64,000 bases of DNA, taken from the NCBI RefSeq assembly GCF_000523235.1, contig NZ_CP006850.1:7440001-7504000 (forward strand), read 5' to 3'. A program made the translations under genes and the position numbers. This stretch comes from Nocardia nova SH22a (GTDB lineage: Bacteria > Actinomycetota > Actinomycetes > Mycobacteriales > Mycobacteriaceae). The notes beneath the pieces were generated by a model, which had not been told where the DNA came from, did not search any database, and worked only from the letters and a program-made list of their open reading frames with translations. Numbering within the stretch: the stretch's first letter is position 1; every line of letters begins with the position of its first letter. This document shows positions 20,869 to 58,600 of this stretch, piece by piece.

Positions 20869-21630
20869 TCAGTCGGATTCGTCGGATTCTGGTATCGGGA
20901 CGGCGCCCAGTACCGCGCCGATTCGCCGCAGCGCCGGTGCGGAGGTCATCCGCCAGTGGGTCGCGGGGACCTCGTGCGAGCGGATCACGCCGGTGACGGC
21001 AGCCGACCAGGTAGCCGCACCGGATGCGCTCGATTCGTCCTCGGCGGCGACGAAATACGTCAGGTCGCCGTGGAACGGGCGGGGCCGGTACGCGGCGGCC
21101 AGTTCGAGGGATCGTCCGGCCGCGGCCACAACCACGTCGATCCGCTCCCGGCCGAGTGCCGCCAACGGCTCGGGCAGCCGTTCGGCGAGCGTTTCCAGGC
21201 TCTCGAACGCACCGGCTTCGGCGTCCACCAGACCGCCGAGCAGTTCGGAGAGTTCGACCGGACGGGCCCCGTCCACCTCCACCGCGCCGAGTCTGCTGTC
21301 CAGTACCGCCAGCAGTGCGACCCGCTCCCCCTCGTCCTGCAGGTGCACCGCGACGGCGTGGGCCAATACACCGCCCAGTGACCAGCCCAGCAGGTGGTAG
21401 GGCCCCTGTGGTTGTACGGACCGGATGGCCTCGGCATAGCGCCGGGCCCACTGTTCCACGGATTCCGGCAGCGACTCCCCGCGCAGGACGGGCGATTGGA
21501 GTCCGTAGAGCGGGCGGTCGGTGGCGGCCGCCAGTCCGGCGAAGGACCACGCGATACCGCCGACCGGGTGGACACAGAACAACGGTTCGCCGACACCGTT
21601 GGGGCGCAACGGGATCAGCATCTCGAGGGC
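20869..21630 (-). other. NRPS-B thioesterase domain
   Basis: The last ~250 residues form a type I thioesterase: [14 protein letters not shown] at the front, nucleophile Ser in [14 protein letters not shown], Asp in [10 protein letters not shown], and a probable catalytic His in VPATHWRM. It releases the finished chain by hydrolysis or by cyclisation. With several Ser and Thr side chains predicted, a lactone is chemically possible, but sequence alone cannot decide. Confidence 0.92.
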
Positions 21631-36600: not shown

Positions 36601-39600
36601 CTGTTCGAACGGCACCGCCGCATGATCGAAGGCCGCCAGATCGATATCGCGGACTCGCGCCAGATGATCGGCGAGACGGTCGCCGCTCCCGACCGGGGTG
36701 CGCAGTACCAGCGTGTTGACGAACATGCCGACCAGGCCGTCGAGCGACTGCGCCCCACGCCCCGCCACCGGCGCACCCACGACGATGTCGTCACCGCCGC
36801 CGAAGCGGGCGAGCAGTACCGACAGCGCGGTGTGCAGCACCATGAACGGTGTCATGCGATGGGTGGCGGCCAGATTGTGAATCCGCTGGTGCAGTGCGGG
36901 ACTCAGGCGAGCCGTCCGCGCACCGCCACGCTGGGAGGCGACCGCCGGGCGCGGCCGATCGGTGGGCAGGGCCGACAGTTCCGCGACGCCCGCCAGTTCG
37001 GCACGCCAGAACTCCAGTTGCCGAGCGGATTCCGAATCCGGATCGGTGACCGAGCCGAGGGCGCGCTGCTGCCACAGCGCGTAATCGGCGTACTGAATCG
37101 GCAGCGGTGCGAAGTCGGGCGCCGATCCCGCGGTGCGGGCCCGGTAGGCAGTGGCGAGGTCCGCGGTGAGCGGTGCGAAGGACCAGCCGTCCGCGGCGAT
37201 GTGGTGGACGACGAACAGCAGAATGTGGGTCTGGTCGTCCCGGGCGGCCTCGGGCGCGCGCCGCACTCGCAGAAGACGTATCCGCACCGGCACTTCGGTG
37301 GTCACGTCGAAGCGGGTGTGCGCCGATTGTTCCGCAATAGTGGCGATTTCGGCGGGATCGGCATCGGTCACCTCGAGGGCGGGCACCGCCGCCGCCAGGA
37401 TGATCTGCCGTGCAGGACAGGCGGGAGCCGAGCCGATGCGGGACGCCGACAGGTCCGGAGTGCGCGCATTGCCGTCATCGGGCCCGACGCCCCGCTGCGG
37501 CTCGACACCGGGCAGACGGACGGCACCGTCGACACCACCGATGCTCTCGACACTGCCGGTGCCGCGGCTGACCTCGACACCGTCGAGGCCGGGATAGTAG
37601 GTGCGCAGCGTTTCGTGCCGTTCGATCACATCGCCGATCGCGGCGCGCAAGGCCGAGACATTCAGATTGCCGGTCAGCCGCAGCGCGAACGCGATGTTGT
37701 AGCTACCACCCCGGGTGTCGAGGCGGTTCAGCATCCACATGCGCTGCTGGGCGATCGACAGCGGCACGATGTCCGGTCGCGGCGACACGACGGTCGGTCC
37801 GGTATCGGATACCTTGTCCGACAGGGTGATCCGCGCCGCCAGAGCGCGCACAGTCGGTGCGTCGAACACGGTGCGCACCGGAACCGGTTGTGCCGTCGCC
37901 TGATTCAGCCGCGCGGCGAGCTGGGTCGCGATCAGGGAGTTGCCGCCGAGTGCGAAGAAGTCGTCGTCGGCGCCCACCTGTCCGGCGCCGAGCAGGGTTT
38001 CGAAGATGTTCGCCACCAGCACCTCGGCCGGTCCGATGGGCGCGCGGTAACGCACCGGCGCGAGCACCGGTTCCGGCAGCGCCTTGCGATCCACCTTGCC
38101 GACCGGTGTGAGCGGGATCTTGTCCAAGACGACAAGGGCGGCCGGAACCATGTGCGACGGCAACCGGTGGGCGGCGAATTCGGTCAGATCGGTCGGGTCC
38201 ACCGTGCGGCCCGGTTTCGGCAGCACATACGACACCAGCATGGTGCCGCGGGTGTCGTGGTCGCGGCCCATCGTGGTCGCGAAATCGACATCGGGATGGG
38301 CGCCGAGGACCGCATCGATCTCACCGAGTTCGACCCGGAATCCGCGGATCTTGACCTGGAAATCGGAGCGGCCGACATACTCCAGCTCCCACGTGCCCTC
38401 CGACACCGCACGCCGCCGCACCACGTCACCGGTGCGGTACATCCGGCTGCCGGGCGCACCCCACGGATTCGGCAGGAACCGTTCCGCGGTCGCACCGGAG
38501 CGATTGCGGTAACCACGCGCCAGCCCGCCACCGGCCAGATACAGTTCCCCCGCCACACCGGGCGGCACCGGCCGCAGTCGCCGGTCGAGTACCAGCGCCG
38601 ACATGCCGGGCACCGGGGTGCCGATGGTGATCGGCCGACCGGCCCGCAGCCGGGCGTAGCTGGAGATGATGGTGGTCTCGGTGGGCCCGTACCCGTTGTG
38701 ATAGCTGCGGCCGGGTTCCCAGTTCGCCAGCAGATCACCGGTGGTCACGTCGCCACCCACCGAAAGCACCCGCAGCTCGGGCAGTTCGGCGGGATCGACG
38801 GTGCCCAGTACCGCCGGGGTGATGATCGCGTGGGTGACCCGTTCGGCTCGCAGCAGCGCCGTCAGTTCCGGTCCGCCGAACACCCGCGCGGGCACGATCA
38901 CCAGCGTGGCTCCGGTCGCGAAGGCGCAGATCCATTCCAGCACCGACGGATCGAAGCTCGGCGAGCAGATGTGCAGCATGCGGTCCCCGGCGGCGAGCCC
39001 GTACCGCGTGACCGCGTGCCGGGCCAGACCACCGAGTCCGGCGTGGGTCACGGTGACGCCCTTGGGCATTCCGGTGGAGCCGGAGGTGTAGATGACATAG
39101 GCGGGATGCGACATCAGCAGCGGCGCGCGCCGTTCGTCCGCGCGCACCGGGCCCGCGGGCAGCGCATCGAGTTCCGCTGTCTCCGAGGGCGAGTCGAGTA
39201 CCAGCCAGCGTACGTCCGCGGGCAGCGCCTCGGCGTAGGCGGAGGTCGTGATGCCGATCCGCGCGGCGGAATCGGTGACCATGTATCGCACCCGGTCCGC
39301 CGGATAGGTGGGGTCCACCGGAACGTGCGCGGCGCCTGCCTGTGCGACGGCGAGCACGGCGGCCACCATGTCGTAGGACCGTGGAAGTGCCACGGCCACC
39401 AGATCTTCCGGGCCGATGCCGAGGGCGATCAACCGACGGGCCAGGCGGGTGGAGTGGTCGGCGAGTTCGCCGTAACGGATCGACCGGCCGTCGTGGCGGA
39501 TCGCGATGTCGTCGCGTCCGGCGTCGCTTGCGGTGAGCAGGTCCGCGAGGGTCGCCGTCGCCATCACCGCATCGGGCTGAACCTCGGTCAGGCGGGTGTA

Positions 39601-42600
39601 TTCCGCGGCTCGCAACAGCGACAGGTCACCCACGGCGGTATCCGGCGTGACAACCAGCTGCCGCAGCAGATCCACGAACCTGCGGGCGAAGTCCTCGATC
39701 GTGGCGTGGTCGAAAAGGTCACGGGCATAGGCGAATTCCGCGTCCATCCCGGCGTCGGTCTCGCGCACGGTCAGCGCCAGATCGAATTTCGCCGTCCCCG
39801 CGTCGATGTCGACGGTTCCGGCACGCAGACCCGGCAGGCACAGCTCCGCCGTCGGCAGATTCTCGTAGGCCAGGGCGACCTGGAACAGCGGATGCCGGGC
39901 GGTGGAGCGCTCCGGTTCGAGCAGTTCCACCAAGCGCTCGAAGGGGATGTCGGCGTGCGCGAAGGCCCGCAGATCGGTTTCCCGGGTGGCGTCGAGGAGC
40001 GCTTCGAAGCTCGCGCCGCCCGCGACGGTGGTGCGCAGGACCACGGTGTTGACGAACATGCCGATCAGATCATCGAGTTCGGCCTCACCGCGTCCGGCGA
40101 TCGGCGAGCCGATCGCGATGTCCTCGGCTCCGGTCATCCGGGCCAGGAAGATCGCCCACGCGGTGTGCACGGCCATGAACGGTGTCGCCTGCCGCGACTG
40201 GGCCAGGGCGCGCAGGCCGTCGCGAATCTCGCCGTCGACGCCGACACGCACCCGTCCACCCCGATAGGACGGCCGCATCGGACGCGGCCGATCGGCGGGC
40301 AGATTCAGCTCATCGGCCAGGCCGTGCAGTTCGGTACGCCAGAACGCCGCCTGCGCGCTGACGATGCTGTCCGGATCGGTTTCGGCACCGAGGACCGTGC
40401 GCTGCCAGATGCTGAAATCGGCGTACTGCACCGGCATCGGCGCCCACTGCGGTGCGGCCCCGGCCGCACGAGATCCGTAGGCGGACATCAGGTCCCGGGT
40501 CAGCGGTGCGATCGACCAGCCGTCGGCGGCGATGTGATGGGCGACGAACACCAGGATGTGTTCGGGCTCGGCGGATTCGACGCGCAACAGGGCGATGCGC
40601 AGCGGCGGCTCGGCCGTCACATCGAATCCCGCGCCGGTCAGCGCGGCCATCCGGTCGGCGATCGCGGTGCGGGTGACGGTTTCCGGTGTGAGGTCGAACC
40701 GCACGTCGGCGGCGGGAACGATCTGCTGATACGGGCCGTCCGCGTGTTCGGGATAGCGGGTGCGCAGGGTTTCGTGCCGTTCGATCAGATCGGCGAGCGC
40801 CGCGGTCAGGGCGGCGATATCCAGATCGCCGGTCAGCCGCACCGCGACGGGGATGTTGTGCACGCCCGTATCCGGATCGAAGCGGTTGAGGAACCACATC
40901 CGCTGCTGTGCCATCGACAGCGGAATGTGCTGCGGCCGTGCCTGTTCCACCAGCGCCGGGCGAGCCGCGCCCACCTCGCTGCCCAGCGCCGCGGCGAATC
41001 CCGCCACGGTGGACGCCTCGAACAGCGTGCGCACCGGCACCCGCGCCTCGACGATCCGGCCGATTCGCGCGCTGACCTGGGTGGCGTCGAGTGAACTGCC
41101 GCCGAGGGCGAAGAAGTCGTCGTCTCGTCCCAGCCGCTGCAGGCCGAGCACCTCGGCGAACACCTCCGCCACCCGATGCTCCAGCGGTGTGCGCGGCGCA
41201 TCGAATTCCGCCACGGCGGGCACCGGCAGCGGCAACGCCTTGCGGTCGAGTTTCCCGCTGCTGTTGAGCGGGAACTCGGCGAGTTCCACGACGGCGGCCG
41301 GGATCATATAGGCGGGCAGTACCGCGCCCAGCCCGCCGCGCACCCGCTCGACATCGAGTTCGGCGCCCGGTGCGGCGACCACATATCCGGCCAGGTAATC
41401 GCCGTTCGCACCGCTGATCAGCCGGACCGCGGCCTGCCCGACTCCCGGTGCGGCCAGTAGTGCGGTCTCGATCTCGGGAAGTTCGATGCGCTGGCCACGG
41501 AACTTCACCTGGAAGTCGATGCGGCCCAGATAGTCGAGTTCACCGTCCGGGGTCCAGCGCACCAGATCGCCGGTGCGGTACATCCGTTCCCCGTTGAAGG
41601 TGAACGGGTTGGCGACGAAGCGGTCGGCGGTCAGATCGGCGCGTCCGTGATAACCGCGAGCCAACTGCACTCCGGCGAGATACAACTCACCGGGCACCCC
41701 TACGGGCACCGGGTGCAGCCGCGAATCCAGCACGAAGACCTGCGAATTCCACTCCGGCTCGCCGATGGGCACACTGCGCACATCGTCGGCGGTGGCCTCG
41801 TGACAGGTGATCGACACCGCCGCTTCGGTGGGACCGTACATATTGTGCAGTGCGCCATCGCATTTCGTGGCGAACAGGGCGGCGGTCTCGGCGGGAAGCG
41901 CCTCGCCGACCACGAAAGCGGCACGCAGGGTGGACAATTCGTCCGGCTCTGCGTGATTGAGGAACACGGTGAGCATCGACGGCACGAAATCGGTGAGCGT
42001 CACCCGCCGGGCCGCGACGGTTTCGGCGAGATAGCGTGCGTCCCGATGCCCGTCCGCGGTGGCCAGGATCAGGGTCGCGCCCGCGCGCAGCGGCAGGAAG
42101 TAGCCCCACAGCGACACGTCGAAGGTGGCGGCGGTCTTCTGCAGGTAGATGTCGTCGGCCCGCACGCCGTACTCGGTGTGCATCCATTCGAGCTGATTGG
42201 CGATCGCGCGGTGGGCGACCGTCACACCCTTGGGCCGCCCGGTCGAGCCGGAGGTGAACAGCACATACGCCGGATGGTCCGGATGCAGCGCGGCACGGCG
42301 TTCGGTGTCGCGGATGGCGGCGGCCGAGTAGCCGGTCAGGTCGAGGGTGTCGATGTGATGGACGGGGACATCGGTCGGCGACTCGAAAGCCGCAGCATGC
42401 GTGGTGAGTACGGTGTGCGGGCGCGCGGTGGCGAAGAGGTGGCCGATCCGCTCGGCCGGATGCGCCGGATCGACCGGCACGTAGGCGCCGCCCGCGCGCA
42501 GCACCGCGTACATGCCGACGACGAGTTCGATCGAGCGCGGCATCGCCAGGACCACGAGCGTCTCGGGCCCGACACCCGTGTCGATCAGCAGGCGGGCCAG

Positions 42601-45600
42601 CCGGTTCACCCGCTCCGACAGCTCCCGGTAGGTGAGTTCGGCCTCGCCGGACACCAGCGCGATCTTGTCCGGTGTGCGCCGGGACCGGGCATCGAATCCC
42701 TCGTGCAGGAAGCGGTCGATCACCTTGTGCCCGCTGGCATTCCAGCTGGAGGTCACATAGTCCAGTTCACCCGCGTCCAGCAGTTCGAGATCGCCGACCG
42801 GGCATTCCGGCGCGGCCGTCGCACCCGACAGCAGGCGCAGGAATTTGGTGGCGAATTCGGCGACGGTGGGTTCGTCGAACAGGTCGGTGGCGTAGGTGAA
42901 TTCGGCGCGATAGCCTCCGGCAGCACCGGCCGGATCCGAAAGGGTCAGTTGCAGATCGAATTTCGCGAATCCCGGATCGAATTCCACGAGTTCGGTGCGC
43001 AGACCGGGTAGTTCCGGTGCGCCGATGCCCATGTTCTGCATGAACAGGCCCACCTGGAACAGCGGGTGCCGGGACTGGGACCGCGCCGGATTCAGCACCT
43101 CGACCAGGCGCTCGAAGGGGATGTCGGCGTGGGCGAAGGCGTCCAGGTCGCGTTCACGAGTGCGCCGGACCAGATCGGCGAAGGCGGCGCCGCCGTCGAC
43201 GTGGCTGCGCAGCACCAGCGTGTTGACGAACATGCCGACCAGATCGTCGAGGGCACGCTCACCGCGCCCGGCGACGGGGGTGCCGATGGCGATATCGCCG
43301 GTTCCGGACAGGCGGGCGAGCAGCAGGGCCAGGGCCGCGTGCACCACCATGAACGGTGTCGCGCGGGTTTGCTCGGCCAGCGTCTCGATCGCCGAGCGCA
43401 ATTCCGCGTCGACCGTGAAGGCGACGGTCGCGCCCCGATAGGAGGCCACCGCGGGCCGGGGGCGATCAGCGGGCAGATCCAATTGCGCCGGGAGATCGGC
43501 CAGTTCGCGCTGCCAGAAGCCGAGTTGCCGGGCCGCCTCACTGTCCGGGTCGGCGTCGGAACCCAGCATCCGGTGCTGCCAGAGGGTGTAATCGGCGTAC
43601 TGCAGCGGCAGCGGCGGGCGCTGCGGGGCGGCGCCTCGGCAGCGGGCGGTGTAGCCCTCGACCAGGTCGCGCAGCAGCGGGCCCATCGACACCCCGTCGG
43701 CGGCGATGTGATGCACCACCAGCACCAGGGTGTGGTCCTGGAGATCGGTGCGCAGCAGCCGCACCCGCACGGGAATCTCGGCCGACACGTCGAATCCGGT
43801 CGCGGCCGTGGCACATACCTCGGCGACCAGGTCCTCCGCGGCGGTCGGCACGGGCGCCAGCTCCGGTGCGGACACCGGCCGGATCACCTGGACCGCGCCC
43901 TCGGCGGTCTGCGGATAGACCGTGCGCAGGATTTCGTGCCGGGCGATCACATCCCCGACCGCGGCCCGCAGTGCCGGAATGTCGAGACGGCCACGCAGCC
44001 GCAGTGCCACCGGAATGTTGTCCACCGCGGCGGCGGCAATGCCGCTGGACTCGGTCACGGCCAGCCGGTTGAGGAACCACATCCGGCGCTGCGCGGCAGC
44101 CAGCGGCACGGTCGCCGGACGCGGCTGGGCGATCAGCGGTGGCCGGACGCGGTCGGTGCCGGTCAGGGCCGCGAGCGCGGCCGGGGTGGGCCGGTCGAAG
44201 AAGTCCCGGACGTCGATCGTGGTCCCGAGGGCGGCCGAGATTCGGGCAAGGGCCCGGGTGGCGAGCAGGGAGTTGCCGCCGCGGGCGAAGAAGTCGTCGG
44301 TGGCACCGACCGGATCGCCGCCGAGCAGATCGGCGAAGATGTCGGCGACGGCTCGCTCCCCCGGTGTCGCCGGTTCACGGAATTCCGCCGCGTCACCGAT
44401 GAATTCGGGTTCCGGCAGCGCCTTGCGGTCGAGTTTGCCGTTGGCGTTGACCGGCATGGCGTCGAGCCCGATCAGCAGGCTGGGCACCATGTACTCCGGC
44501 AGCCGTCGCCCCGCCTCCGCGAGGATCGAGCCCGCATCGAGTTCGACCCCACCGGCCGCCACCGCATAGCCGATCAGGTGGTCACCGGTGTCGCCGTGAT
44601 GCAGGACCACCGCGGCCTGCGCCACCGATTCGCAGGACAGCAGCGCCGCCTCGACCTCACCCAGTTCGATCCGCAGGCCGCGCAACTTCACCTGGAAATC
44701 GCTGCGGCCCAGATATTCCAGTTCGCGCGGACCACCGTCGGCCCCGCCGGACCAGCGCACCAGATCGCCGGTGCGGTACATCCGGTCGCCGGGCGCACCG
44801 TGCGGATTGGCGACGAACCGTTCCGCCGTCAGCGCCGAGCGTCCCAGATAGCCGCGGGCCAGCTGCACACCCGACAGATACAGCTCGCCCACCACGCCGT
44901 CGGGCAGGGGCTCCAGGTTGTCGCCCAGTACCAGCAGATCGGTGTCGTCGGCGGCGGTGCCGATGGGCACGCTGTGCACGTCCGCGCCGGTGACCTCGTG
45001 CGCGCTGACGTCCACCGCGGCCTCGGTGGGGCCGTACAGATTGTGCAGGCTCGCACCGCTCACATCGCGCAGTGCCGCACCGGTCGCGGCGGGCAGCGCC
45101 TCGCCGGAGACGAATATCGCACGCAGCGAATCGATTTCGTCCTCCGCGCCGCGCTCCGCGACTTCCGCGGCGAAGACCGCCAGCATCGAGGGAACGAAGT
45201 GGGCGATGGTGACTCGCGCGGCCGCCACCGTCCGGATCAGATAGGCCGGATCGCGATGCCCGTCCGGCGCGGCCAGCACGAGCCGCGCGCCGACCTGCAA
45301 GGGCCAGAAGAACTCCCACACCGACACATCGAAGGTGAACGGGGTCTTCTGCAACACCACATCGGTGTCCCGCATCCGGTAGCGGCGCTGGCGCCAGCGC
45401 AGATTGGCCACGATGGCGCGATGCGAGACCGCGACACCCTTGGGTCGTCCGGTCGAACCCGAGGTGAAGATGATGTAGGCGACATTGTCCGGAAGGGCGT
45501 GCGGTGTCTCCTCCGATTCGAGAACCGACCCGTCTTCGGCTGTGTCCCAGTCGAATTCATCCACGCGAAGCACGGGCACCGTGCCGAAGGACGGCGCACC

Positions 45601-46284
45601 GGCGGTGGTGAGAACGACGACGGGCGCGGCGACCTCGAGGACGTAGGCGATCCGGTCGGCCGGATGTTCCGGATCGATCGGCACATAGGCGCCACCGGCC
45701 TTGTGGATCGCGTACATGCCGATCACCAGTTCCAGCGAACGCCGCATCGACAGTCCGACCCGGGCATCGGGCCCGACGCCGAGCCGGATCAGCTTCCGTG
45801 CCAGCGTATTCGCGCGAGCATCGAGTTCGGCGTAGGTGAGCGTCCGGTTCTCGAATTCCACCGCCACCGCATCCGGCGTACGGGCCGCCTGTTCGGCGAA
45901 CAGCGTCGCCAGGGTGTCGGCGGGAGCGAGGCCGGGGGACAGCACATGTGCGGCGGCGGTGAGGGCATCATCGAGCAGTTCGGACACCGCGGCCGACAGC
46001 GCGCCCTCTCCGGCATCCAGCAGACCCGGCAGTCGGCCCGAGATCACCACCTGCACAAGGGCATCGGGTGTGAGCGCCGATCCCATGGTGGCGTCCAGCG
46101 CGCCGACCTCGGCGCCCAGTTCGGCGTAGGTGATCGTGTCCGCCTCGTGCCGGACGGCGACACGGCCAGGTTCGAGATCGGCCACGACCTCGATCAGAAA
46201 GGGCAGATCCGCGATTCCGTAGGCGCCGCGCAGCGCCGGGGGCACGGTGGACCGGAGGGGTGTGACCGACTCTGCGTGTGTCAT
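20869..46284 (-). CDS. NRPS-B: eight-module nonribosomal peptide synthetase with terminal thioesterase
   Basis: This 8471-residue protein reads, in order: degenerate adenylation fragment (1-118), A6-T6, then seven complete C-A-T modules (7-13) and a type I thioesterase. Carrier-domain serines fall at residues 672, 1731, 2783, 3899, 4957, 6024, 7074 and 8173, all in GGxSL. Each C domain has HHIAADG (HHIAGDG in module 10), and no epimerisation domain follows any carrier. The thioesterase nucleophile is S8302 in GWSLGG. The usual spacing between carriers is about 1050-1067 residues; modules 9 and 13 are longer by about 60 and 43 because of linker insertions. The start ATG 46284 follows GAAAGG, 69 bp after NRPS-A. 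It starts with half a module, so it must dock to NRPS-A. The product is unknown. Confidence 0.97.
21631..24900 (-). other. NRPS module 13 (C-A-T), unassigned specificity
   Basis: C13 has HHIAADG. The adenylation pocket, aligned by eye to GrsA positions 235-517, reads DLWHLILVSK, close to module 5 (DLWFLILVSK) but matching no code I can name. An insertion of about 32 residues with a repeated VGRD lies between motifs A2 and A3 (23059-23155). The carrier Ser is in [12 protein letters not shown]. The thioesterase follows directly. Confidence 0.88.
24901..28045 (-). other. NRPS module 12 (C-A-T), unassigned specificity
   Basis: C12 has HHIAADG. The pocket reads DVWFLVTVIK. Its A domain differs from most others here, with [17 protein letters not shown] and VGGEAF, and groups by eye with module 8. 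Bulky aliphatic or aromatic substrates are possible from the hydrophobic pocket; this is inference only. Confidence 0.87.
28046..31248 (-). other. NRPS module 11 (C-A-T), unassigned, acidic pocket residue
   Basis: C11 has HHIAADG. The pocket reads DVWDFILVSK. The aspartate at position 278 is unusual and is shared with module 7 (DVWDFVMVSK); it could contact a positively charged side chain such as ornithine, diaminobutyrate or lysine. The A-domain front half has [14 protein letters not shown], also shared with module 7. Confidence 0.87.
31249..34430 (-). other. NRPS module 10 (C-A-T), serine predicted
   Basis: C10 has HHIAGDG, a minor variant. The pocket reads DVWHFSLVDK, a recognised serine code. 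Part of the A domain (32303-32484) is almost identical at DNA level to module 3. The carrier Ser is in [11 protein letters not shown]. Confidence 0.9.
32303..32484 (-). repeat. 182-bp near-identical tract, copy in module 10
   Basis: This stretch matches 55442-55623 with 180 of 182 bases identical by direct reading. It covers the pocket part of the A domain from before FDVSVWE to FVPSM. Its codons favour GTG, TTG, GGT and CGT more than its surroundings. Confidence 0.85.
34431..37770 (-). other. NRPS module 9 (C-A-T), serine predicted, insertion in C domain
   Basis: The pocket reads DVWHFSLVDK, serine. C9 has HHIAADG but carries an extra stretch of about 55 residues (37413-37577) after YYPGLDG and before the QIILAAA strand, rich in Gly, Ser and Pro. 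The carrier Ser lies in [12 protein letters not shown]. Confidence 0.9.
37771..40930 (-). other. NRPS module 8 (C-A-T), unassigned specificity
   Basis: The pocket reads DPLILVGIIK; the usual Trp at position 239 is Leu and position 236 is Pro, so this pocket differs strongly from the others. The A domain contains [16 protein letters not shown] and VGGDVTT, related to module 12. C8 has HHIAADG. No substrate assigned. Confidence 0.87.
40931..44115 (-). other. NRPS module 7 (C-A-T), unassigned, acidic pocket residue
   Basis: C7 has HHIAADG. The pocket reads DVWDFVMVSK, closely related to module 11. The A8 core reads [11 protein letters not shown], with Pro for the usual Gly. The carrier is GGSSLDATQ. 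Modules 7 and 11 probably use the same or a similar amino acid. Confidence 0.87.
44116..45930 (-). other. NRPS module 6, A-T half, serine predicted
   Basis: This half-module begins NRPS-B after the degenerate fragment. The pocket reads DVWHFSLVDK, serine. Its condensation domain is the last complete domain of NRPS-A, so module 6 is assembled from two proteins. The carrier Ser is in [11 protein letters not shown]. Confidence 0.9.
45931..46284 (-). other. NRPS-B N-terminal degenerate adenylation fragment (docking candidate)
   Basis: Residues 1-118 precede the true A6 domain. Residues about 26-100 resemble the first 80 residues of an A domain ([10 protein letters not shown], then [14 protein letters not shown] and [14 protein letters not shown]) but stop before motif A3. 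The same kind of fragment ends NRPS-A, with 26 identities over 72 ungapped positions by direct reading. It has no catalytic motif and most likely holds the two proteins together. Confidence 0.75.
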
Positions 46285-46353
46285 CGGTGGGCCCTACCTT
46301 TCTGGGGCGGATGATTCGGCGATGTTGCTGTGGCCCGGCGGAATACCTTGAAT

Positions 46354-46668
46354 TCAGTCGCTGTGCAGGGCAATGTCGGCTCCTTCCACCCCGATGCCAT
46401 CCGTGGTGAGCACGCCCCACGCCCGCGCCTGCAGCATCTCGAGCATGGTGGTGAGACCGCCCGCACCCGCGGTGAGAACGCCCGGCAGCAATCCCGCGAG
46501 TGCGACATTGATCAGCGCGTCCGTCCTCGCATTCGCACCCATGGCCCGCCCGACGGCGACGAGTTTGCGGTGCAGCTCGGCGAATCCGACTTCGCGACCG
46601 CCGAATTCGACGGCGAGCGCGTCCGGCGCCGATCCGGCGGCGGCGCCGACCAGGCCGACCAGATCATC
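46354..46668 (-). other. NRPS-A C-terminal degenerate adenylation fragment (docking candidate)
   Basis: The last 104 residues after C6 begin [20 protein letters not shown] and continue with [18 protein letters not shown] and [16 protein letters not shown]. This resembles the first 80 residues of an adenylation domain, cut off before the ATP motif. It is the mirror partner of the N-terminus of NRPS-B and ends in a short unrelated tail. Confidence 0.75.
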
Positions 46669-49600
46669 GGGCAGCGGTACCGGCCCGGACCGGACGAGTC
46701 GTCGATTCCGCTCGTCGTCGGTGCGAATGTCGATGGCACGCACCGCGATCGACGGGTCCGCCGCCACCGTCGCGAGGACCAGTTCGAGCCGCCGGGCGAA
46801 CATCGCGACGGTGCGCTCGTCGAAGATGTCGGTGGGATAGCAGAACTGCATCCGCAGATCCCGAGCACCGTCGTCGCCGAACTCCTCCAGCGCGGTGAGC
46901 TGCAGGTCGAATTTCGCCTCGGGCAGTCCGGGTTCGAGAGTCGCGACCCGCAGGCCGGGCAGGTCCACCGCATCCTGCGGCATATTCTGGAAGGTGAACA
47001 GCACCTGGAAGATCGGCGCGTACGCGCTGGTCCGGGTGCGTCCCAGCGATTCCACGACTCGTTCGAACGGCACCTCGGCCCGGCCGAGTGCGGCCAGATC
47101 GTCCGCCCGGACACCGTCGAGCAGTTCGGCGAACGGCAGTCGGCTGTCGACCAGGGTGCGCAGGGCCACCGTATTGACGAACATGCCGACCAGATCGTCC
47201 AGTTCGCGCTCACCGCGTCCGGCGACCGGCGCCCCGATGACGATGTCGGACTGTCCGGACAGCTTCGCCAGCAGCACCGCGAAGGCGGTGTGCACGGTGC
47301 TGAACAGGGTGGTCCCGTGTTCCCGTGCCACCGTCGCGAGCCGTTCCACCAGTTCGGCGCCGAGCGCGAAATCGACTGTCGCACCGCGCATGTCCCGGCG
47401 CGCGGGGCGCGGGCGATCGGTCGGCAGGGCCAGCAGTTCGGGCGCGTCGGCGAGCCGGTCGTGCCAGTAGCCGAGTTGTCCGGCGGCGAGGCTCGCGGGA
47501 TCGGTGTCGTCACCCAGGAGTGTGCGCAACCACTCGCTGTAGTCGGCGTACTGGATCGGCAGCGCAGACCACTGCGGCGCGGTCCCGGCCCGGCGGCTCG
47601 TGTAGGCGGCGATGAGATCGCGGGTCAGCGGCGCCATCGAATAGCCGTCGGCACTGATGTGATGCACCACCACGACCAGAACATGGGCGTCCGCCGCGGT
47701 CCGGAGCAGTCGCACCCGGATCGGCGGTGCGGCGGTGATATCGAATCCCTCGGCGACGATCTCGCCGATTCGCTCCTCTATTTCGGTGTCTCGCACGGTG
47801 ATCGGATCGATGTCCAGAGCCAGCGCGGCCACCGGCACGATCTCCTGCACCGGTCCGTGCTCGGTTTCCGGATAGCAGGTCCGCAGCACCTCGTGCCGGG
47901 CGGCCAGATCCGCGAGTGCCGCCCGCAGCGCATCGAGATCCAGTTCCCCGCTCAGCCGCAGTGCGACCGGAACGTGGTAGGCGGCCGAGTCGGGGGTGAG
48001 CCGATGCAACACCCACATCCGCTGCTGGGCGGGTGACAAGGCCACCGGCCCCGGGGTGGTGCGGGGCCGCAGCACCGGACGGTCCGTCCGGTCGGCGGTC
48101 TCCAGCCATCGGGCGAGTGCGGCCACCGTGGGCGATTCGAAGACCGCGGCGACCGGCACCCGCACACCCGCGGCCGTTCCGAGCCGCGCGGCCAGCCTGG
48201 CGGCCGACAGCGAATTGCCGCCGAGTTCGAAGAAATCGGTCTCGGCGCCGACCGGCACGTCGGCAGCCCCGACGACCCCGGCGAATTCCGCCGCGACCAG
48301 AAGTTCGGCGTCCGTCTCCGGCGCCCGGAACTCACCGCGCGGCAGCACCGGGGCGGGCAGCCGGTCGCGGTCGATTTTGCCGTTGGCATTGAGCGGCAAG
48401 GCATCCAGCACCACGACGACGGCCGGAACCATGTACTTCGGCAGCTCGCCGAGCAGGGCCTCCCGCAGTCCGGCGCCGTCGATGCCGTGCCCGGGAACCG
48501 CCGCGTACGCGATGAGCCGGGAGCCGCCCGCGACCTGGTCCGTCGCGACCGCGACCGCCGCCTCGACTCCCGCCTGCCGCCGCAGCGCCGTTTCCACCTC
48601 ACCGAGTTCGATGCGGAATCCACCGATCTTGACCTGGAAATCCGCGCGCTCGAGGTATTCGAGCAGACCGTCCGCGCGGCGGCGCACGATATCGCCGGTG
48701 CGATACATGCGGCCGCCGCCGAACGGGTCGGCCACGAACCGCGCCGCGGTCGCCCCGGGCTGTCCCTGATAGCCCCGGGCGAGCTGGTCACCGGCCACAT
48801 ACAGCTCGCCCAGCACGCCCGGCGGCACCGGCCGCAGGCGCCGATCGAGGACGTGGGCGCGGGTGTTCCAGACCGGTGCGCCGATCGGCACCACCAGCCC
48901 CGGCACACCGTCCACCCGATGGGAGGTCACCGACACCGCGGTCTCGGTCGGTCCGTACAGGTTGAACAGCGTTGTGCCGCTGAGCCTTTCGATCTGCTTC
49001 GCCAGCGTGCTCGGCAGGGTCTCGCCGATGGCCAGCACCGCTCGCAGCTCACGCGGCAGGCCCTCCTCCGAGGCCAGCAACATGCCCAGCAGCGACGGGA
49101 CGGTGAACAGCAGGCTGATCCGGTGTCGCCGCACCAGTGCGCGCAACCGGTCGGGATCGCGTTCGGCGCCCGGTTCGGTCACCACGAGCGTCCCGCCGCT
49201 GATCGCCGTGGACCAGAACTCCCACACCGACAGATCGAAGGTGGCGGGGGTCTTCAGCAGCGTCCGATCGGTGGCGTCGATACCGAATTCGGTGCGCAGC
49301 CAGAACAATTGGTTGACGATCGCACCGTGTGACACCGCGACGCCCTTGGGCACCCCGGTGGAGCCGGAGGTGAAGATCACGTACGCGGTGTGCGCCGCCC
49401 GCAGCGGACGCACCCGCTCCCCGGGCTCGATCGGCACGGCCGGATACCGCGACAGATCCATTCCCGGATCCACCACCGGCACCTCCGGCCGCAGCCCCGG
49501 CAGCGCGCCGGTGCCCAGGACACAGATCGGGGCCGCGGTCGCCACGATCCGCTCGATGCGCTCGGCCGGATGGTCGAGATCCACCGGGACGTAGGCGCCG

Positions 49601-52600
49601 CCCGCCTTGGTCACCGCGTACATGGCGATCACGAGTTCGACCGAGCGCCGCAGCGCCAGCACCACCGTGGTGTCCGGGCCGACGCCGAGTCCGATCAGGT
49701 GCCGGGCCAGCCGGTTCACCCGGTCGTCGATATCGCGGTAGTCGAGTTCGATCGCCTCGGAGGCGGTGTCGTCGATGACGGCGATCGCGTTCGGGGTCGT
49801 GGCGACCTGGATGTCGAGCAGATCCGCCAGCGTCGCCTCGGCGACGTAGTGATGCGTCCGGTTGCCGTCCTCGACGACGAAGCGGTACTCCTGCTCCCCC
49901 ATCAGCCCGAGATCGCGGATCCGGGTCTCCGGCGCGCCGGCGACGGCGGTCAGCACCCGGGTCAGCTGGGCGGCGAGCCGTTCCCCGGTCGCAGCGGTGA
50001 ACAGGTCGGTGGCGCAGCCGAGCGCCAGATCCATCCCGGCGGGGACACCGGTTTCGCTGTAGTGGTCGACCGCGAACAGATGCAGGTCGAATTGTGCTGT
50101 CTCACCGTCGGATTCGATCTGGGTGACGGTGAGCCCGGGCAATTCGAGGCGCGCGCGGTCGTGGTTCTGGAACGACAGGCCGACCTGGACCAGTGGATGC
50201 CTGGCGGTCGAGCGGCGCGGGTTCAGCACCTCGACCAGCCGCTCGAACGGCACCTCGGTGTGAGACAGCGCGGCGATATCGGCCGTGCGAACTCCCCGGA
50301 GCAGGGTGTCGAAGGAGTCGTCCACATCGACCGCGGCCCGCAGCACCACGGTGTTGACGAACATCCCGATGACCTCGTCCACCGCGGCGTCGTTACGACC
50401 CGCGACCGGTGTGCCCACCGCGATGTCGGAGGTGTCGCACAGCCGCGCGAGCAGCGCCGCGAAGGCGGCGTGCACCACCATGAACAGTGTCGCGCCGTGT
50501 GCGCGGGCCAGCTCCGTCAGCCGGAGGTGCACATCGGCGTCGAGTGCGAATTCCACCCGGCGGCCGCGCAGGCTCTGCTTCGCCGGACGGGGGTGGTCGG
50601 TCGGCAGATCCAGTTGATCGGGCAGTCCGGCCAGGGCGCCGGACCAGAAGGCCAGCTGCCGGGAGACGAGTGAGTCGGCGTCGGACTCGTCTCCCAGCAG
50701 CCGGTGCTGCCACAGCGCGTAGTCGGCGTACTGCACCGGCAGCGGCGACCAGCCGGGGCGGTCTCCCCGCACCCGGGCCTGGTAGGCACCCATCAGATCG
50801 GCGACGAACGGCACGATCGAGGACCCGTCGGCGGCGATGTGGTGCAGCACCACGGCCAGCACGTGTTCGTCGGCCGCGAGTTCGAAGATCCGCGCCCGCA
50901 CCGGAATCTCGGCGGTCACGTCGAATCCGGCGGCGGTCAGCGCCCGGAGCTGTTGCGGCAGTTCGACTTCCGTCATCGGAATCGGTTCCGCGTCGATCCG
51001 GGCCCGCTCGGCGGGCAGGATCACCTGGGTGGCCGCACCGTCGACCTCGGGATACACCGTCCGCAGCGATTCGTGCCGTCCCAGCACATCCCGCAGCGCC
51101 CGGGCCAGCGCCGGTAGATCGGCATCGCCGGACAGCCGCAGCACCAGCGGAATGTTGTAGGCCGCCGAGGCCGGATCGAACCGGTTGAGGAACCACATGC
51201 GCTGCTGTGCGGGCGAGAGCGGCAGCCGGTCCGGCCGGGCGTCGGCCGTCAGGGCCGGGCGGTCGGCGCCCGCGACCGCCACCGCCGCGAGGTCGTGGAC
51301 GCGGGGGTGTTCGAACAGGGCGCGCACCGGGACGGTCACACCGAGCGCGGCGCCGATACGGGCGACCGCCTTGGCCGCCGCTAGCGAGCCACCGCCCAGG
51401 GCGAAGAAATCGTCGTCGGCGCCGATCATCCGGCCGGGCTCGAGATCGCTCAGCACCTCGGCGAAGGCGTCGGCGACGAACTGTTCGGCCGCGGTCCGCG
51501 GCCGCCGGAAAACCGCGGTCTCGAACACCGGCGCCGGTAGCGCCCGCACATCCCGTTTCCCGTTGACGGTCAACGGAATTCGATCGACCGCCAGCACGGC
51601 GGCCGGAACCATGTGCTCGGGCAGCCGCCCGGCCACGGCCTGACGTACCCGTCGGGTGTCGAGGTCACCGACCACATAGCCGACGAGGCGTTCCTCACCG
51701 CCGTCGGCGCGCACGACCACCGCGGCCTCGCGCACGCCGTCCACCGCCAGCAGCGCCGCCTCGATCTCACCGAGTTCCACTCGGAACCCGCGCATATTCA
51801 CCTGCTGATCGGCGCGGCCCAGATATTCCAGTTCGCCGGAAGCGGTCCACCGGGCCAGATCGCCCGAGCGATAGGTCAGCGCTCCGGGCGCACCGTAGGG
51901 ATCGGCGACGAAACGCCCGGCCGTCAGCCCCGGCCGGTGCAGATAGCCACGCGCGAGTTGTCCACCGGAGACATATATTTCGCCCGGCACGCCCACCGGA
52001 ACGGGCCGCAGCCGCGAATCCAGCAGACGTACCGCGAGTCCCGGCAGCGCGGCGCCGATCACACCGGCGCTTCCGGTGTCGGCGCCGAGCTCCCGGAACG
52101 ACACGTGCACCGTGGTCTCGGTGATGCCGTACATGTTGATCAGCCGCGGCGTGTGCGGATGACGCGCGAACCAGTCCCGCAGCCGGGCCGGTTCCAGCGC
52201 CTCACCGCCGAAGACCACACAGCGCAGTCGCAGTCCGGTGGCAGGTTGCGCCGCGTCCGCGCTCATCAGCTGGTAGAACGCCGAAGGGGTCTGGTTGAGC
52301 ACGGTGACGCCCTCGTCGCCCAGCAGTTCCAGGAACTGCTGCGGCGACCGGGAGGTGAAGTAGTCGACCACGACGATCCGGCCACCGTGCAGCAGCGCTC
52401 CCCACAGCTCCCACACCGAGAAGTCGAAGGCGTAGGAGTGGAACAGCGTCCACACGTCGTCACTGCCGAAATCGAACCGCTCGCGCGTATTGTCCAGCAG
52501 CCGAATCACATTGGCGTGCGGAATCTGAACGCCCTTGGGTTTTCCGGTGGATCCGGAGGTGTAGATGACGTAGGCGGTGTTGTCCGGCCGCAGTGGTGCA

Positions 52601-55600
52601 CGGCGGTCGGCGTCGGTGATCGGCGCCGAGGAGAACTCGTCCGCCGAGCCGATGCCGATCACCGGCCCGGTGCCCCCTCCGGCGACCGCGCCTTCGGTGA
52701 TCACGCAGACCGGCCGGGAGTCGGCGAGTACATAGTCGATGCGGTCGGCCGGGTAGTCGGGGTCGACGGGCAGATAGCCCGCACCGGACTTGACGACCGC
52801 CAGCAGCGCCACGACCAGCTCAGCGGTGCGCGGAAGTGCCACGGCCACCAGGGTTTCCGGTCCGGCACCCGCGGCGATCAGGCGGCGCGCGAGCCGGTTC
52901 GACCGGGCGTCGAGTTCGCCGTAGGTGAGGGTGGTGGCGCCCGCGCGCACCGCGATCGCGTCCCGGTCCCGGGCGGCGGCCTCGAAACGCGCGGCGAGCG
53001 TGGTGGTCTCGGCGCTGTCCGTTCCCGTAGTCGACCATTCGCGCAGCGTGCGGTGCTGCTCCTCGGCGCTGAGCAGCTGGATGTCGCCGACGACGACGGT
53101 GTGGTCGTGGCTGACCGCGGCCAATACCTGTTCGAATCGGCGGGCCAGTTCGTGAATGGTTACCGGGTCGAAAAGGTCGGTGGCATAACCGATATCGACG
53201 GTCATGCCTCCGGCGCGCCCGTCGGCGTCGATGGATTCGAGCACGGTGAACTGCAGATCGAATTCGGTCGACACCGCCTCGGCCGCCTCGGGCGTGACCT
53301 GGAGGTCGGGCAGTTCGATCGCCGGGAGCGCGAAGTTCTGGAAGGTCAGCACCACCTGGAACAGCGGATGCCGGTTCGCGGCACGCGCGGGCGCCAGCAT
53401 TTCCACGACCTGTTCGAAGGGCACCTCGGCCTGCGACAGTGCCGAGATGTCCTGCGCCCGGACGAGATCGAGGACGGCGTCGAAGTGGTCGCGGCTGTCG
53501 ATCTGGGTGCGGAGCACGAGAGTGTTGACGAACATGCCGACCATCGGGTCCAGCGCGGGTTCCCCGCGTCCCGCCACCGGTGTGCCGATCGCGATGTCCG
53601 AGGTGCCCGACATCCGCGCCAGCAGCACCGCCAGCGCGGCGTGCACGGTGCTGAACAGCGTGGTCTCGTGTTTGCGGGCCAGCTCGCCGAGTTCGCTGTG
53701 CAGATCGGAGTCGATACGGAAGCGGTGGTTGCCGGCCCGGTGCGAGGGCGTGATCGGGCGCGGCCGGTCGGACGGCAACTCGAGCTGATCCGGTAGTCCG
53801 TCCAGCCGGGCGCGCCAGAACTCCCGCTGCCGGGCCAGCTCCGATCCGGGATCGGCGAGGTCGCCGAGCACGTCGGCCTGCCACAGCGTGTAGTCCCGGT
53901 ACGTCACCCGCAGTTCCGGCAGATCCGGCTCCCGGCCGCCGCGGCGCGCCGTGTACGCGGTCATCACGTCACCGGCCAGCGGGCCCAGCGAGAAGCCGTC
54001 GGCGCAGATGTGATGCAACGCCAGCAGCAGCACATGATGATCGGGTGCGAGCTCGAAAAGTGCCGCGCGGAAGCCGGTTTCGACGGTCAGATCGAAGGGC
54101 TCGGCGCAGAGGTCGGCGATTCGGGCGGTCGATGCCTGCTCGTCGACGGCCTCGACAGGTAGCCGAAGATCGCGGATCGAATCGACCACCTGGACCGGCC
54201 CGTCCGCGGTGTCCGGGTAACGGGTGCGCAAGGTCTCGTGCCGTGCCGTCACATCGGCGAGGGCGGCGCGCAGGGCATCGACCCGCAGGTCCCCGCGCAG
54301 CCGCAGGACCAGCGGAATCAGATCGAGCGAGGCGGCGCTACCGGCATCGGCGCGATACCGGTTGAGGAACCAGATCCGCCGCTGTGCCGCCGACAGCGGC
54401 ACGGGCTCGGTGTGGGTCCGCGCGGTCAGCGGCGGCCGCGCTCCCGTGCCTGTCTCGCGCCGCACCCGCAGCGCCAGCGAGGACACCGTGGTGGCCTCGA
54501 ACAGCAGGCGCACCGGCAGATGTGCGTCGAGTGCCGCGCCGATCCGGGCGAGAACCTGGGTGGCCAGCAGCGAGTTGCCGCCGAGTTCGAAGAAGTCGTC
54601 GTCGCGCCCGACCCGTTCGGCACCGAGCAGTTCGGCGAAGACCGAGGCCACGAGCTGTTCGGTGGTCGTCTCCGGCGCCCGGTACTCGCGCACCTGCCGC
54701 ACCGGGTCCGGCAGCGCCGCCCGATCGATCTTGCCGGAGCCGTTGAGCGGCAGCTCGTCGAGAACGACATAGTCCGACGGCATCATGTAGGCCGGTAGTC
54801 GCTGCGCTAGCGCGGCTTTCACCGCGCCCAGGTCGAGTGCGACGCCCGCGACGGGCACCGGATAGGCGACCAGGCGATCACCGGTGTGCGGATCGCTGTG
54901 CACAACCACCACCGCGCGGTCGATCTCGGACCGATCGACGAGTGCGGATTCGATCTCGCCGAGTTCGATGCGCAGGCCGCGCACCTTCACCTGGAAGTCG
55001 GTGCGGCCGTGATATTCCAGTTCACCGGCCGTATTCCAGGCGACGAGATCGCCGGTGCGGTAGAGCCGGGAGCCGGAGCCGAACGGATCGGCGACGAATC
55101 GGGCGGCGGTCAGGTCGGACCGCCGCACATATCCCTCGGCCAATTGCGTTCCGGCCAAGTACAACTCGCCGGCGACACCCACCGGCACGGGGCGCAACCA
55201 GGTGTCGAGGACGTAGACGCGGGTGTTGTGGACCGGGCGGCCGATCGGCACGGTCGCGGTGTCGGCGTCGGTCACCTCGTGGTAGGTCACATCCACGGCG
55301 GCTTCGGTGGGGCCGTACAGATTGTGCAGGCGGGCGCCGGTCGCCGCGCGCATCCGCTGCGCCACGTCCACCGGCAATGCCTCACCGGAGGTGAACACCG
55401 TCCGCAGCGAGCCAGGGCGGGCGTGGGCGATGAACAGCGCCAGCATCGAGGGGACGAAATGCGCCGTGGTGACCCGCTCGGACTCGATCAACTCCGCCAG
55501 ATACCCCGGATCACGATGACCGTCCGGCCGAGCCACAACCAACCGCGCACCCACCTGCAACGCCCAGAACAACTCCCACACCGACACATCGAACGTCACC

Positions 55601-58600
55601 GGAGTCTTCTGCAACACAACATCATCGGCGCTCAGACCGTATTCGGACTGCATCCACACCAGGCGGTTGACGATCGCGCGATGCGAGACCGCCACACCCT
55701 TCGGAACACCCGTCGAACCGGACGTGAAAATCACATACGCCGTGTGCTCCGCACGCAACGGACGCAACCGATCGGCATCCGTGATCGATGCAGACGAATA
55801 GTCCGAGGTGTCGAACCGGTCGATATCGAGGAGTGCGCCGAATTCACCCGTCCCGAGTTCGAGACCGTCGTCCGTGCGGGTCAGTACGCAGACCGGTCGC
55901 ACGGCGTCGAGCACCGCGCGGGTGCGCTGCCGCGGATGTTCGGGATCCACCGGAACGTAGGCCGCGCCGGAGGCGAGAACGGCATGCACCGCGATCACCA
56001 GGTCGGCGCTGCGCCGCATGCCGATCGCGACCGTGCGCCCGGGTCCGGCGCCGATCGAAATCAGCAACCGGGCAAGCCTGTTCACCTGCGCGGACAGCTC
56101 GTCGTAGGCCCACTCCGCACCCTCGAAACGCAGGGCGGGCGCGGCGGGGCAGCGCTCGGCTCGGTCGGCGAACAGCTCCGGCAGCGTCGTCTCCGGCAGC
56201 GCGCGGCCGGTGTGATTCCAGGCCACCAGGATCTGCTCGCGCTCCCGATCCGAGAGCAGATCGACGGTGCCGATCGGCCGCTCCGGATCGGCGACGACGG
56301 TGTCCAGCAGGGTGCCGAGCCGTCGCGCGAAACTCGCGATCGTCGCCGCGTCGAACAGATCCGTCGCATATTCGAAGACGGCCGCCGCACTGCCGTCCGG
56401 ATTCTCCTCGACCGTCAGTTGCAGATCGAATTTCGCGGTACCGGAATCCAATTCGAGCAGGTCGGCCCGCAGGCCGGGCAGCTCCGGCACTGCGGCGGCG
56501 GCCTGCCGTAGATCCAGCATGACCTGGAACAGCGGGTGCCGAGCCGCCGAACGCAGCGGATTCAGCACCTCGACGAGGCGTTCGAAGGGGACATCGCGAT
56601 GGGCGAAGGCCCGCAGATCACCGTCGCGGACGGCCGCGAGCAGTTCCGCGAAGGTCTGCTCGGGCGCCACCTCGGCCCGCAGCACCAGGGTGTTGACGAA
56701 CATGCCGACCAGCTCGTCCAACGCCGCCTCACCACGCCCGGCCATCGGTGTGCCGATCGCGATATCGCGCTGTCCGGAGAGTTTGGCCAGCAGTACGGCC
56801 GTGGCCGCGTGCAGCGCCATGAAGAAGGTGCTCCCCTGCCGTTCGGCCAGCGCGCGCAGTCCGGCGAGCGACTCGGCGGCGAGGGTGAACCGGTGCCGGG
56901 CACCCCGGCCCGAGGCCACCGCGGGCCGGGGCCGATCGCCCGGCAGAGCCAATACGTCGGGGAGCCCGGCCAATTCGTCCCGCCAGAACAGGAGCTGCGC
57001 GGCGAACACCGACCGGGAATCGTCCTCCGCTCCCAGCACCTCGCGCTGCCACAGCGCGTAATCCGCGTACTGCACCGGCAGCGGCCGCCAGCGGGGCGCA
57101 TCGGCGGCGGCGCGCGCGGTGTAGGCGATCATGAGATCCCGGGTCAGCGGTGCGATCGACCAGCCGTCCGCGGCGATGTGGTGGATCGAGACCACGAGCA
57201 CGTGCTCCTCGGGGGCGCGGCGCAGCAGCGTCGCGCGCACCGGTACCGCCTCCCGCACCGAGAACCCGTCGCTCGCGAGTTCTCGTAGCCGCCCGGCCAA
57301 TTCGGCCTCGGTGACGAGCTGGGGCGTGAGGTCGATCGGCACCTCGTCGGCTGCCACGATCTGCTGGTACGGCACCCCGTCGAGGTCCGGATACCGGGTC
57401 CGCAGCGCTTCGTGGCGATCCAGCACATCGCGCAGCGCGGCCGTCAGCGCCGCATCGTCCAGCACGCCGGACAGTCGGACCGCGGTGGTCAGATTGTCGA
57501 CCGCCGAGGCGGAGTCGAATCGGTTGCGGAACCACATCCGTCGCTGGGCATAGGACAGCGGCACCACCTCGGGCCGCGGCCCCGCGATCAGCGCCGGACC
57601 GCGCCGGAACGCCGAATCCCGCAGTCGCCGGGCCAGACCCGCCACATCCGGGTGCTCGAACAGCGCGCGCACCGCGACCTCGCGGTCCAGCGCGTCGGCC
57701 AGCCGCGCCGAAACCTGGGTGGCGATCAGGGAATTGCCGCCCAGGGCGAAGAAGTCGTCATCGAGCCCGACCCGCTCCACGCCGAGAACCTGCTCGAATA
57801 CCGTTGCCACCGCGCGCTGTTCGGCCGTCTCCGGCGCCCGGAATCGCGCGGCCGTCAGTACCGGATCGGGCAGGGCGGCGCGATCGAGTTTGCCGGACGG
57901 GGTCTGGGGCAGAGCGGGCAGCGCGACGTAGGCGCTGGGCACCATATAGGAGGGCAGCAGTTCGGCCAGCCGGTCCGCCACCAGACTCCGGGGATCGTCG
58001 ACATCGCTGACGACATAGGCCACCAGCAGATCACCGGTGTCATGCCGATACACCCGCACCGCCGCGGCGTCCACACCGGGGACGTCCAGCAGAACCGCCT
58101 CGATCTCACCGAGTTCGAGCCGCTGGCCGCGCAATTTCACCTGGAAATCGCTGCGGCCCAGATACTCCAGGGCACCACCGCGCAGGCGCCGCACCAGATC
58201 ACCGGTGCGGTACATCCGGGTTCCGGCCGGGCCGAACGGATCGGCGACGAAACGCCCCGCGGTGGCCGCGCCCTGCCGCAGATATCCGCGCGCCACCTGT
58301 GCACCGGCGAGATACAGCTCACCCACCACCAGATCCGGCACCGGACGCAGCCGCTCGTCGAGCACCAGCACACGGCTGTCGCGCACGGGCGTTCCGATCG
58401 GCGCCGGTCCGCGCCGCTCGGCATCGACGGGCGCGTGCGTGGCGTGCACGGTGAATTCGGTGGGCCCGTACAGATTGTGCACAGCGGCGTCGCTGACGGC
58501 CGCGAACTCGCGCGCGGTGATGCCGCCCAGCGCCTCACCGGCCGCGAAAACGGCTCGCAGCGTGCGGATGTCGCGCGCGTCCACACTCTGGACGAAGGTG

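Follow-up and report, generated by a model that had tools for sequence, protein, structure and literature searches.

Adenylation-domain-derived tail and head domains as a probable docking pair inside a split peptide synthetase module of Nocardia nova SH22a and its relatives

A stretch of 64,000 nucleotides from Nocardia nova SH22a (NCBI RefSeq assembly GCF_000523235.1, contig NZ_CP006850.1, positions 7,440,001 to 7,504,000; hereafter the window) contains two neighbouring nonribosomal peptide synthetase (NRPS) genes, NRPS-A and NRPS-B, which divide a single module between its condensation (C) and adenylation (A) domains. Each protein carries at this break a small domain, f, that descends from the start of an A domain: tail f near the C-terminus of NRPS-A and head f near the N-terminus of NRPS-B. 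We conclude that tail f and head f probably form a matched, non-catalytic docking pair that links two NRPS subunits across the C-A seam of a single module, and we infer that they bind each other. The finding is real and larger than in its first description, made from the letters of the window without database searches (the sequence-only reading), and it represents a variant within the docking and adaptor domains of NRPSs.

According to the motif scan, the part of NRPS-A inside the window (46354..63999; all window coordinates given here are on the minus strand) comprises five units of C, A and thiolation (T) domains, with one T lacking a motif match, followed by a sixth C and tail f; no thioesterase (TE) was found in this part by the same scan. 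The gene starts outside the window, and the full protein has 5934 aa in the protein listing. The last C domain, C6, forms the C half of the split module (46708..48070; the end near 46708 comes from Pfam Condensation, and the upper bound is approximate, from motif spacing). About 117 codons follow C6, and Pfam gave no match in NRPS-A downstream of the Condensation domain. Tail f, of about 87 aa (46408..46668), lies here, 17 codons upstream of the TGA stop codon (46354..46356), and matched the tail profile with E 4.6e-34, the sequence itself being part of that profile. A gap of 69 nt, in frame (46285..46353), leads to the ATG start codon of NRPS-B (46282..46284); most parsed Nocardia loci have a 1-nt stop/start overlap, TGATG, the others showing -4, +3 or 69 nt and one being misparsed. 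NRPS-B (20869..46284) was read by the motif scan as head f, eight A domains with T and C domains, and a TE-like domain at the end. About 118 aa precede its Pfam AMP-binding domain, which begins at residue 129, and they include head f, of about 84 aa (45961..46212; E 2.0e-16 with the tail profile). The first A domain, A6, which is the A half of the split module, was recognized in the stretch tested (45601..45900) as Pfam AMP-binding with E 9.4e-33. Since NRPS-A ends in C without TE and NRPS-B contains eight A domains with TE at its end, a single module is interrupted, at the boundary of C6 and A6.

The two f domains are homologous to each other. BLASTP aligned them with 27 identities in 78 positions and 0 gaps (E 4e-10 for a single comparison), compared with the 26 of 72 counted in the sequence-only reading, which had recognized homologous A-derived pieces flanking the split. 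When the tail was searched against its own 8.35-Mb genome, the head ranked first after the tail itself (E 1.7e-6, versus 1.2e-4 for the strongest ordinary A domain), and the head likewise retrieved the tail first (E 1.8e-6; ordinary A domain 1.3e-3). Within the window, none of the other C-A seams of NRPS-A or NRPS-B scored like f in the tail and head genome searches. That f might be an unmodified A-domain start or a chance similarity was rejected, because head and tail are mutual best non-self matches, above the listed A domains, and have a derived C-terminal third in common.

Regarding the descent of f, profiles built from 21 tails and 21 heads matched A domains of NRPSs in the PDB over approximately the first 60 positions (best E 1.9e-4 for tails and 2.5e-7 for heads), and PF00501 matched 9 of 14 diverse f sequences at E up to 10, the best at 6.1e-6. 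AlphaFold2 modelled each f as a helix, a beta hairpin, a helix and then a helical hairpin, with block means mostly above 80; Foldseek overlaid 41 residues of f on 1amu, 6vhy and 7r27 at 1.1–1.4 A, with E values of 1.9–2.5 that are not significant. The PDB profile matches, PF00501 and the AlphaFold2 fold together identify f as the N-terminal part of an A domain, with a final third that is new and with no catalytic motif. Compared with a complete NRPS adenylation domain, f aligns with the first ~60 residues and has no ATP or substrate motifs; the catalytic core motifs A3–A10 are absent, f being too short for them, and Pfam sees no AMP-binding in either window fragment. The last ~35 residues, the helical hairpin, are not A-like by profile and constitute the derived stretch common to tails and heads. 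The ~80 residues of A-domain start proposed from the window alone are thus correct for the first ~60 and not for the last ~35. Both domains are under purifying selection, with dN/dS values of 0.17 for the tail and 0.29 for the head, next to 0.11 for C and 0.14 for A (nine loci of the N. nova group, 36 pairs), and invariant positions are present in the 21 diverse tails and in the 21 heads.

A search of 150 Nocardia genomes indicated that the arrangement recurs and that its parts are co-inherited. At E 1e-4 the tail search matched 119 genomes and the head search 102; the weak rows were ordinary A domains or cross-hits, and only strong ones were counted (tails at E <= 2.6e-12, plus genome G019 from a separate search; NRPS-B heads at E <= 5.9e-21; heads on another synthetase, X, from the head search, with G033 and G034 added from a separate search). 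The tail was present in 96 genomes, the NRPS-B head in 83 and the X head in 17. A head accompanied the tail in 95 of the 96 tail-bearing genomes, adjacent in 78 and on X in 17, and B heads and X heads never occurred together in one genome (G048 and G050 each have one unlisted extra match). The whole-genome searches scored part of the first-look candidates (e.g., 29 or 30 per genome), so absences in them are not proof. All 71 named matches of the tail profile belong to Nocardia, and at 55 named Nocardia loci the tail lies at most 60 aa from the stop codon and is followed by the head on the next gene, ahead of an A domain. Three further loci were recorded in these genomes. At locus L252 (G001:C145), NRPS-A is a frame of 554 aa in which its N-terminal part runs into the end of the tail, beside an intact NRPS-B head; this wreck may be a real deletion or a misassembly. 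The SH22a genome has a second C|A split (G000:C1:879246-892998, locus L094), where a 2486-aa frame ends in C plus ~200 aa of eroded A domain, apparently two A-starts in tandem, and the next synthetase begins directly with A, without a head. The same genome bears a very large NRPS frame of 16764 aa (G000:C1 up to 7438782, minus strand; L257), whose 5' end lies ~1.2 kb before the window start.

Likewise, the pair extends to other genera. In a family-wide search of 301 genomes from 31 genera, strong tails (E < 1e-18) were found in eight genera besides Nocardia. An order-wide search of 397 genomes gave weak matches outside the family (best 2e-8, covering 2-73 of 89), which were taken unread as ordinary A domains. 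Forty stretches from other genera were fetched, and adjacent tail/head pairs scoring >60 bits were present in 26 of them, from seven genera, with a weaker pair in one (L198). The remaining stretches contained a tail only (L214), a head only (four: L199, L204, L220 and L221), internal f (five) or pieces of one gene with internal f (three). At the 26 loci with adjacent pairs, the tail again lies at most 60 aa from the stop, and the head of the next gene precedes an A domain. Names among the matches include Rhodococcus rhodochrous (head) and Rhodococcus sp. ACT016, R. hoagii and Prescottella defluvii (tails). The sequence-only reading had named as support for its view that such fragments should recur in matched pairs where proteins are split, and this was borne out in Nocardia and in seven other genera.

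In the 17 Nocardia genomes with an X head, one gene has been relocated and both partners persist. The X synthetase has open frames of up to 8.05 thousand amino acids (kaa); those of G079, G107 and G134 are 2.3-6.9 kaa and come from many-contig assemblies. NRPS-A and X are 1.36, 1.49 and 1.82 Mb apart in the three genomes where both are on one contig, and on separate contigs in the other 14. X begins with f followed by A in all three of the 17 that were read at the start, and the X of G074, the only one followed to its end, terminates in TE. The top four matches of the first A domain of X were the first A domains of B-type proteins, at 63-68%. The gene still adjoining NRPS-A, read in 6 of the 17, starts with MSHT.SVT much like NRPS-B, but f is missing, as is the TSGSTG motif of its first A domain; in the three cases read to the end, this decayed neighbour is ~0.7-1.04 kaa long. 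The tail f is nevertheless retained on NRPS-A in the X genomes.

Copies of f also occur outside split modules. Proteins of 11.3-11.8 kaa with two internal f, about two modules apart, were found in 10 of 12 genomes chosen for earlier matches of this kind (e.g., G171:C1:200226 and 207030), and all eight internal sites read, one of them from Williamsia, lie between C and A. In G170 (genus g22, locus L198), a C-f-A site that other genera keep within one protein, with one f, is split and carries two f. The A domain at this site in G170 is the orthologue of the one in the unsplit protein (66%, versus 39% to the other one), and both of its f copies are closest to the single f of that protein (48% and 50%). 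A tail of the G170 type is also followed by a head in G211 and G227, but there the head precedes an ordinary A domain of a different type; the G170-type A domain comes later in G211, on another gene with a head (L287; by eye). The sequence-only view that an ancestral A domain was duplicated at the break survives in part: G170, compared with the unsplit single f, supports duplication at the break point, but the pieces copy an older A-derived domain of ~90 aa and are not A halves made here, since f is also found within unsplit modules and on free-standing proteins.

The free-standing f are found chiefly in Williamsia (genus g19), where two such genes lie near a synthetase with two internal f in 8 of 8 genomes, counted with a profile that included sequences of one of the eight. 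Named proteins of this type have 103-146 aa, mostly f, beside a synthetase of 11.2-11.9 kaa (e.g., G263:C3:907565-908764); in G167 and G263, where the sites were read, they lie within ~1.5 kb upstream of the synthetase. In the protein search, free-standing f were hypothetical proteins without a Pfam domain, the named ones mostly from Williamsia. A further tail/head split at another synthetase was read in two Williamsia genomes (G225 and G263). Extra heads whose own tail was not seen occur in G170, G175, G184 and G203, and at E 1e-15 G211 has four heads and two tails; genes with a TE-like end precede two of these heads (by eye). At G211:C5:171201-198502 and C16:5343, two synthetases that start with head f come after one that bears tail f; the first of the two has a TE-like end, a further head is located elsewhere, and the arrangement may be a branch point.

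Docking is the use of f that is best supported, as a prediction. In its favour are the position of tail and head at the split, their co-inheritance, the survival of both partners where one gene has moved, purifying selection, the two classes described below and the genomes in which heads outnumber tails. As in docking pairs generally, small non-catalytic domains lie at the facing ends of consecutive subunits, C-terminal on the first and N-terminal on the second, and form complementary pairs. Each f keeps the ~60-residue A-domain N-terminus (helix, beta hairpin, helix) and has a helical hairpin in place of the rest of the enzyme, which was lost. In the proposed mechanism, NRPS-A, with its C-terminal f and no TE, would meet NRPS-B, with its N-terminal f, first A and terminal TE, through a tail f:head f heterodimer; tethered in this way at the C-A seam, the carrier that A6 has charged with its amino acid could gain access to the acceptor side of C6. 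The likely contact would involve the helical hairpins and the charged second helix, and the pair would be needed for synthesis. Tails and heads fall into two classes. At column 44, tails have K/R (net +0.96, 97 sequences) where heads have E (net -0.80, 64 sequences, after dropping heads >200 aa into an open frame), with smaller differences at columns 13, 25, 29, 50 and 58. Opposite charge at some homologous positions would be expected for a pair evolved from one duplicated domain; the compared sequences being related, the contrast is a pattern and not a test. In a tree, 39 of 41 non-redundant tails formed one clade (support 0.54) and 34 of 37 heads, X included, another (0.87), each holding Nocardia and other genera. 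A broader reading, which is on balance doubtful, is that f founded a self-contained f:f docking code in this actinobacterial family, in which tail:head pairs bridge split modules, one tail may serve several heads and so branch products, and the free f of Williamsia might bind internal f.

A number of observations weigh against docking. Pairing, expected from the window alone, is regular and not obligate, as a head is present with no intact tail in five Nocardia genomes (G001, G010, G011, G089 and G121) and a tail with no head in one (G019). Ordinary A domains often have a basic residue at column 44 too (by eye), so only the E of the head is clearly derived, and the g22 pair (L198) has R at this column on both sides. 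Support for the tail clade is weak. The co-divergence analysis, in which 81 tail/head pairs were listed, gave no tail-head excess in Nocardia (partial correlation 0.11, versus 0.46 for tail-A and 0.44 for head-C), and in the other genera the tail-head value of 0.26 was no higher than the remaining comparisons; this outcome speaks against a pair that co-evolves privately. AlphaFold2 models of joined tail and head reached a predicted template modelling score of 0.48 with a tail-rich alignment and 0.57 with a head-rich one, from unpaired rows and without predicted aligned errors, and showed no confident interface. Finally, the single f between C and A in unsplit proteins has no subunits to join there.

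The main rival explanation, which we judge rather unlikely, takes f as a boundary domain acting in cis between C and A, which caps the C face or stabilizes or spaces the next A, the split having left one cap per side. The single f of the unsplit 11.3-11.8-kaa proteins, the heads without tails, the missing confident interface and the lack of co-divergence excess would all suit such a cap; co-inheritance and the X genomes are also expected if both proteins simply serve one pathway, and at the L094 split the C side bears another kind of A remnant, with no head opposite. This explanation fits poorly with the other C-A seams of NRPS-A and NRPS-B in the window, which do not score like f, with the two distinct classes of tails and heads, charge-opposed at some positions and separate across genera, and with free-standing f genes that have no C or A to cap. 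A considerably less probable alternative is that f recruits a third partner, such as a tailoring enzyme, an MbtH-like protein or another trans factor, by a logic comparable to that of the X domain of glycopeptide synthetases. The location of f at the same kind of site in split and unsplit modules is consistent with this, as are the paired free f genes beside the synthetase with two internal f in all eight Williamsia genomes; however, it leaves the regular tail/head pairing unexplained, and what might act in trans in Williamsia is again an f. That f represents neutral remnants of a broken or half-duplicated module is very improbable, given the purifying selection, the invariant positions and the adjacent pairs at such sites in eight genera, even if no A-domain catalytic motif or Pfam domain is left in either window fragment and the NRPS-B copies beside NRPS-A decay where the partner was relocated.

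When compared with known systems, the proposed docking pair combines familiar features in a different place. The NRPS docking elements covered in the excerpt of a review available to us (PMC9113145) sit at junctions of an epimerization (E) domain with C (E/C), or of a peptidyl carrier protein (PCP) with C or with a heterocyclization (Cy) domain (PCP/C and PCP/Cy). The beta-hairpin docking domains (bhD) described there occur at PCP/C or PCP/Cy, and their partner is a disordered short linear motif (SLiM) of <15 aa. They resemble f in being small N-terminal domains with the order helix, beta hairpin, helices, in joining NRPS subunits and in having one donor for several acceptors; they differ in that f sits at a C|A junction and its partner is a homologous domain, folded in the model. 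No bhD entry was among the 39 and 46 PDB rows matched by the f profiles, in which A domains were matched. The same excerpt presents COM as a helix plus a hand on the C domain at E/C and PAX as a three-helix bundle at PCP/C; both are, like f, matched C- and N-terminal elements between NRPS subunits, and neither is described in that excerpt as A-derived or at a C|A split. Unlike with COM, the upstream protein here ends in C and the downstream one begins with A. The N-terminal PCP-like adaptor of TomB, as presented in part of PMC11186497, is likewise a dead copy of an NRPS domain reused for subunit recognition, but it is a carrier-protein copy that recruits the donor PCP, whereas f is an A-domain copy in a homologous pair. 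Type S NRPSs with SYNZIPs in the C-A linker, according to the portion of PMC10443035 available, also join two proteins at a C-A split, by means of man-made leucine zippers, while the f split is natural; in that man-made split, the yield fell to ~30% until the linker was restored. In the partly accessible literature searched, with most subscription journals outside that search, neither a docking domain derived from an A domain nor a naturally occurring C|A split bearing one was described.

If docking is correct, a natural and conserved split within a module, bridged by two dead copies of an A-domain lobe, would add to the known means of connecting NRPS subunits, and engineers working on the C-A seam would have in the f pair a model taken from nature. 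Specificity can be tested directly with the relocated partner genes and with the loci where heads outnumber tails. The pair also suggests how docking parts may originate, namely when part of a catalytic domain is copied at the site of the break.
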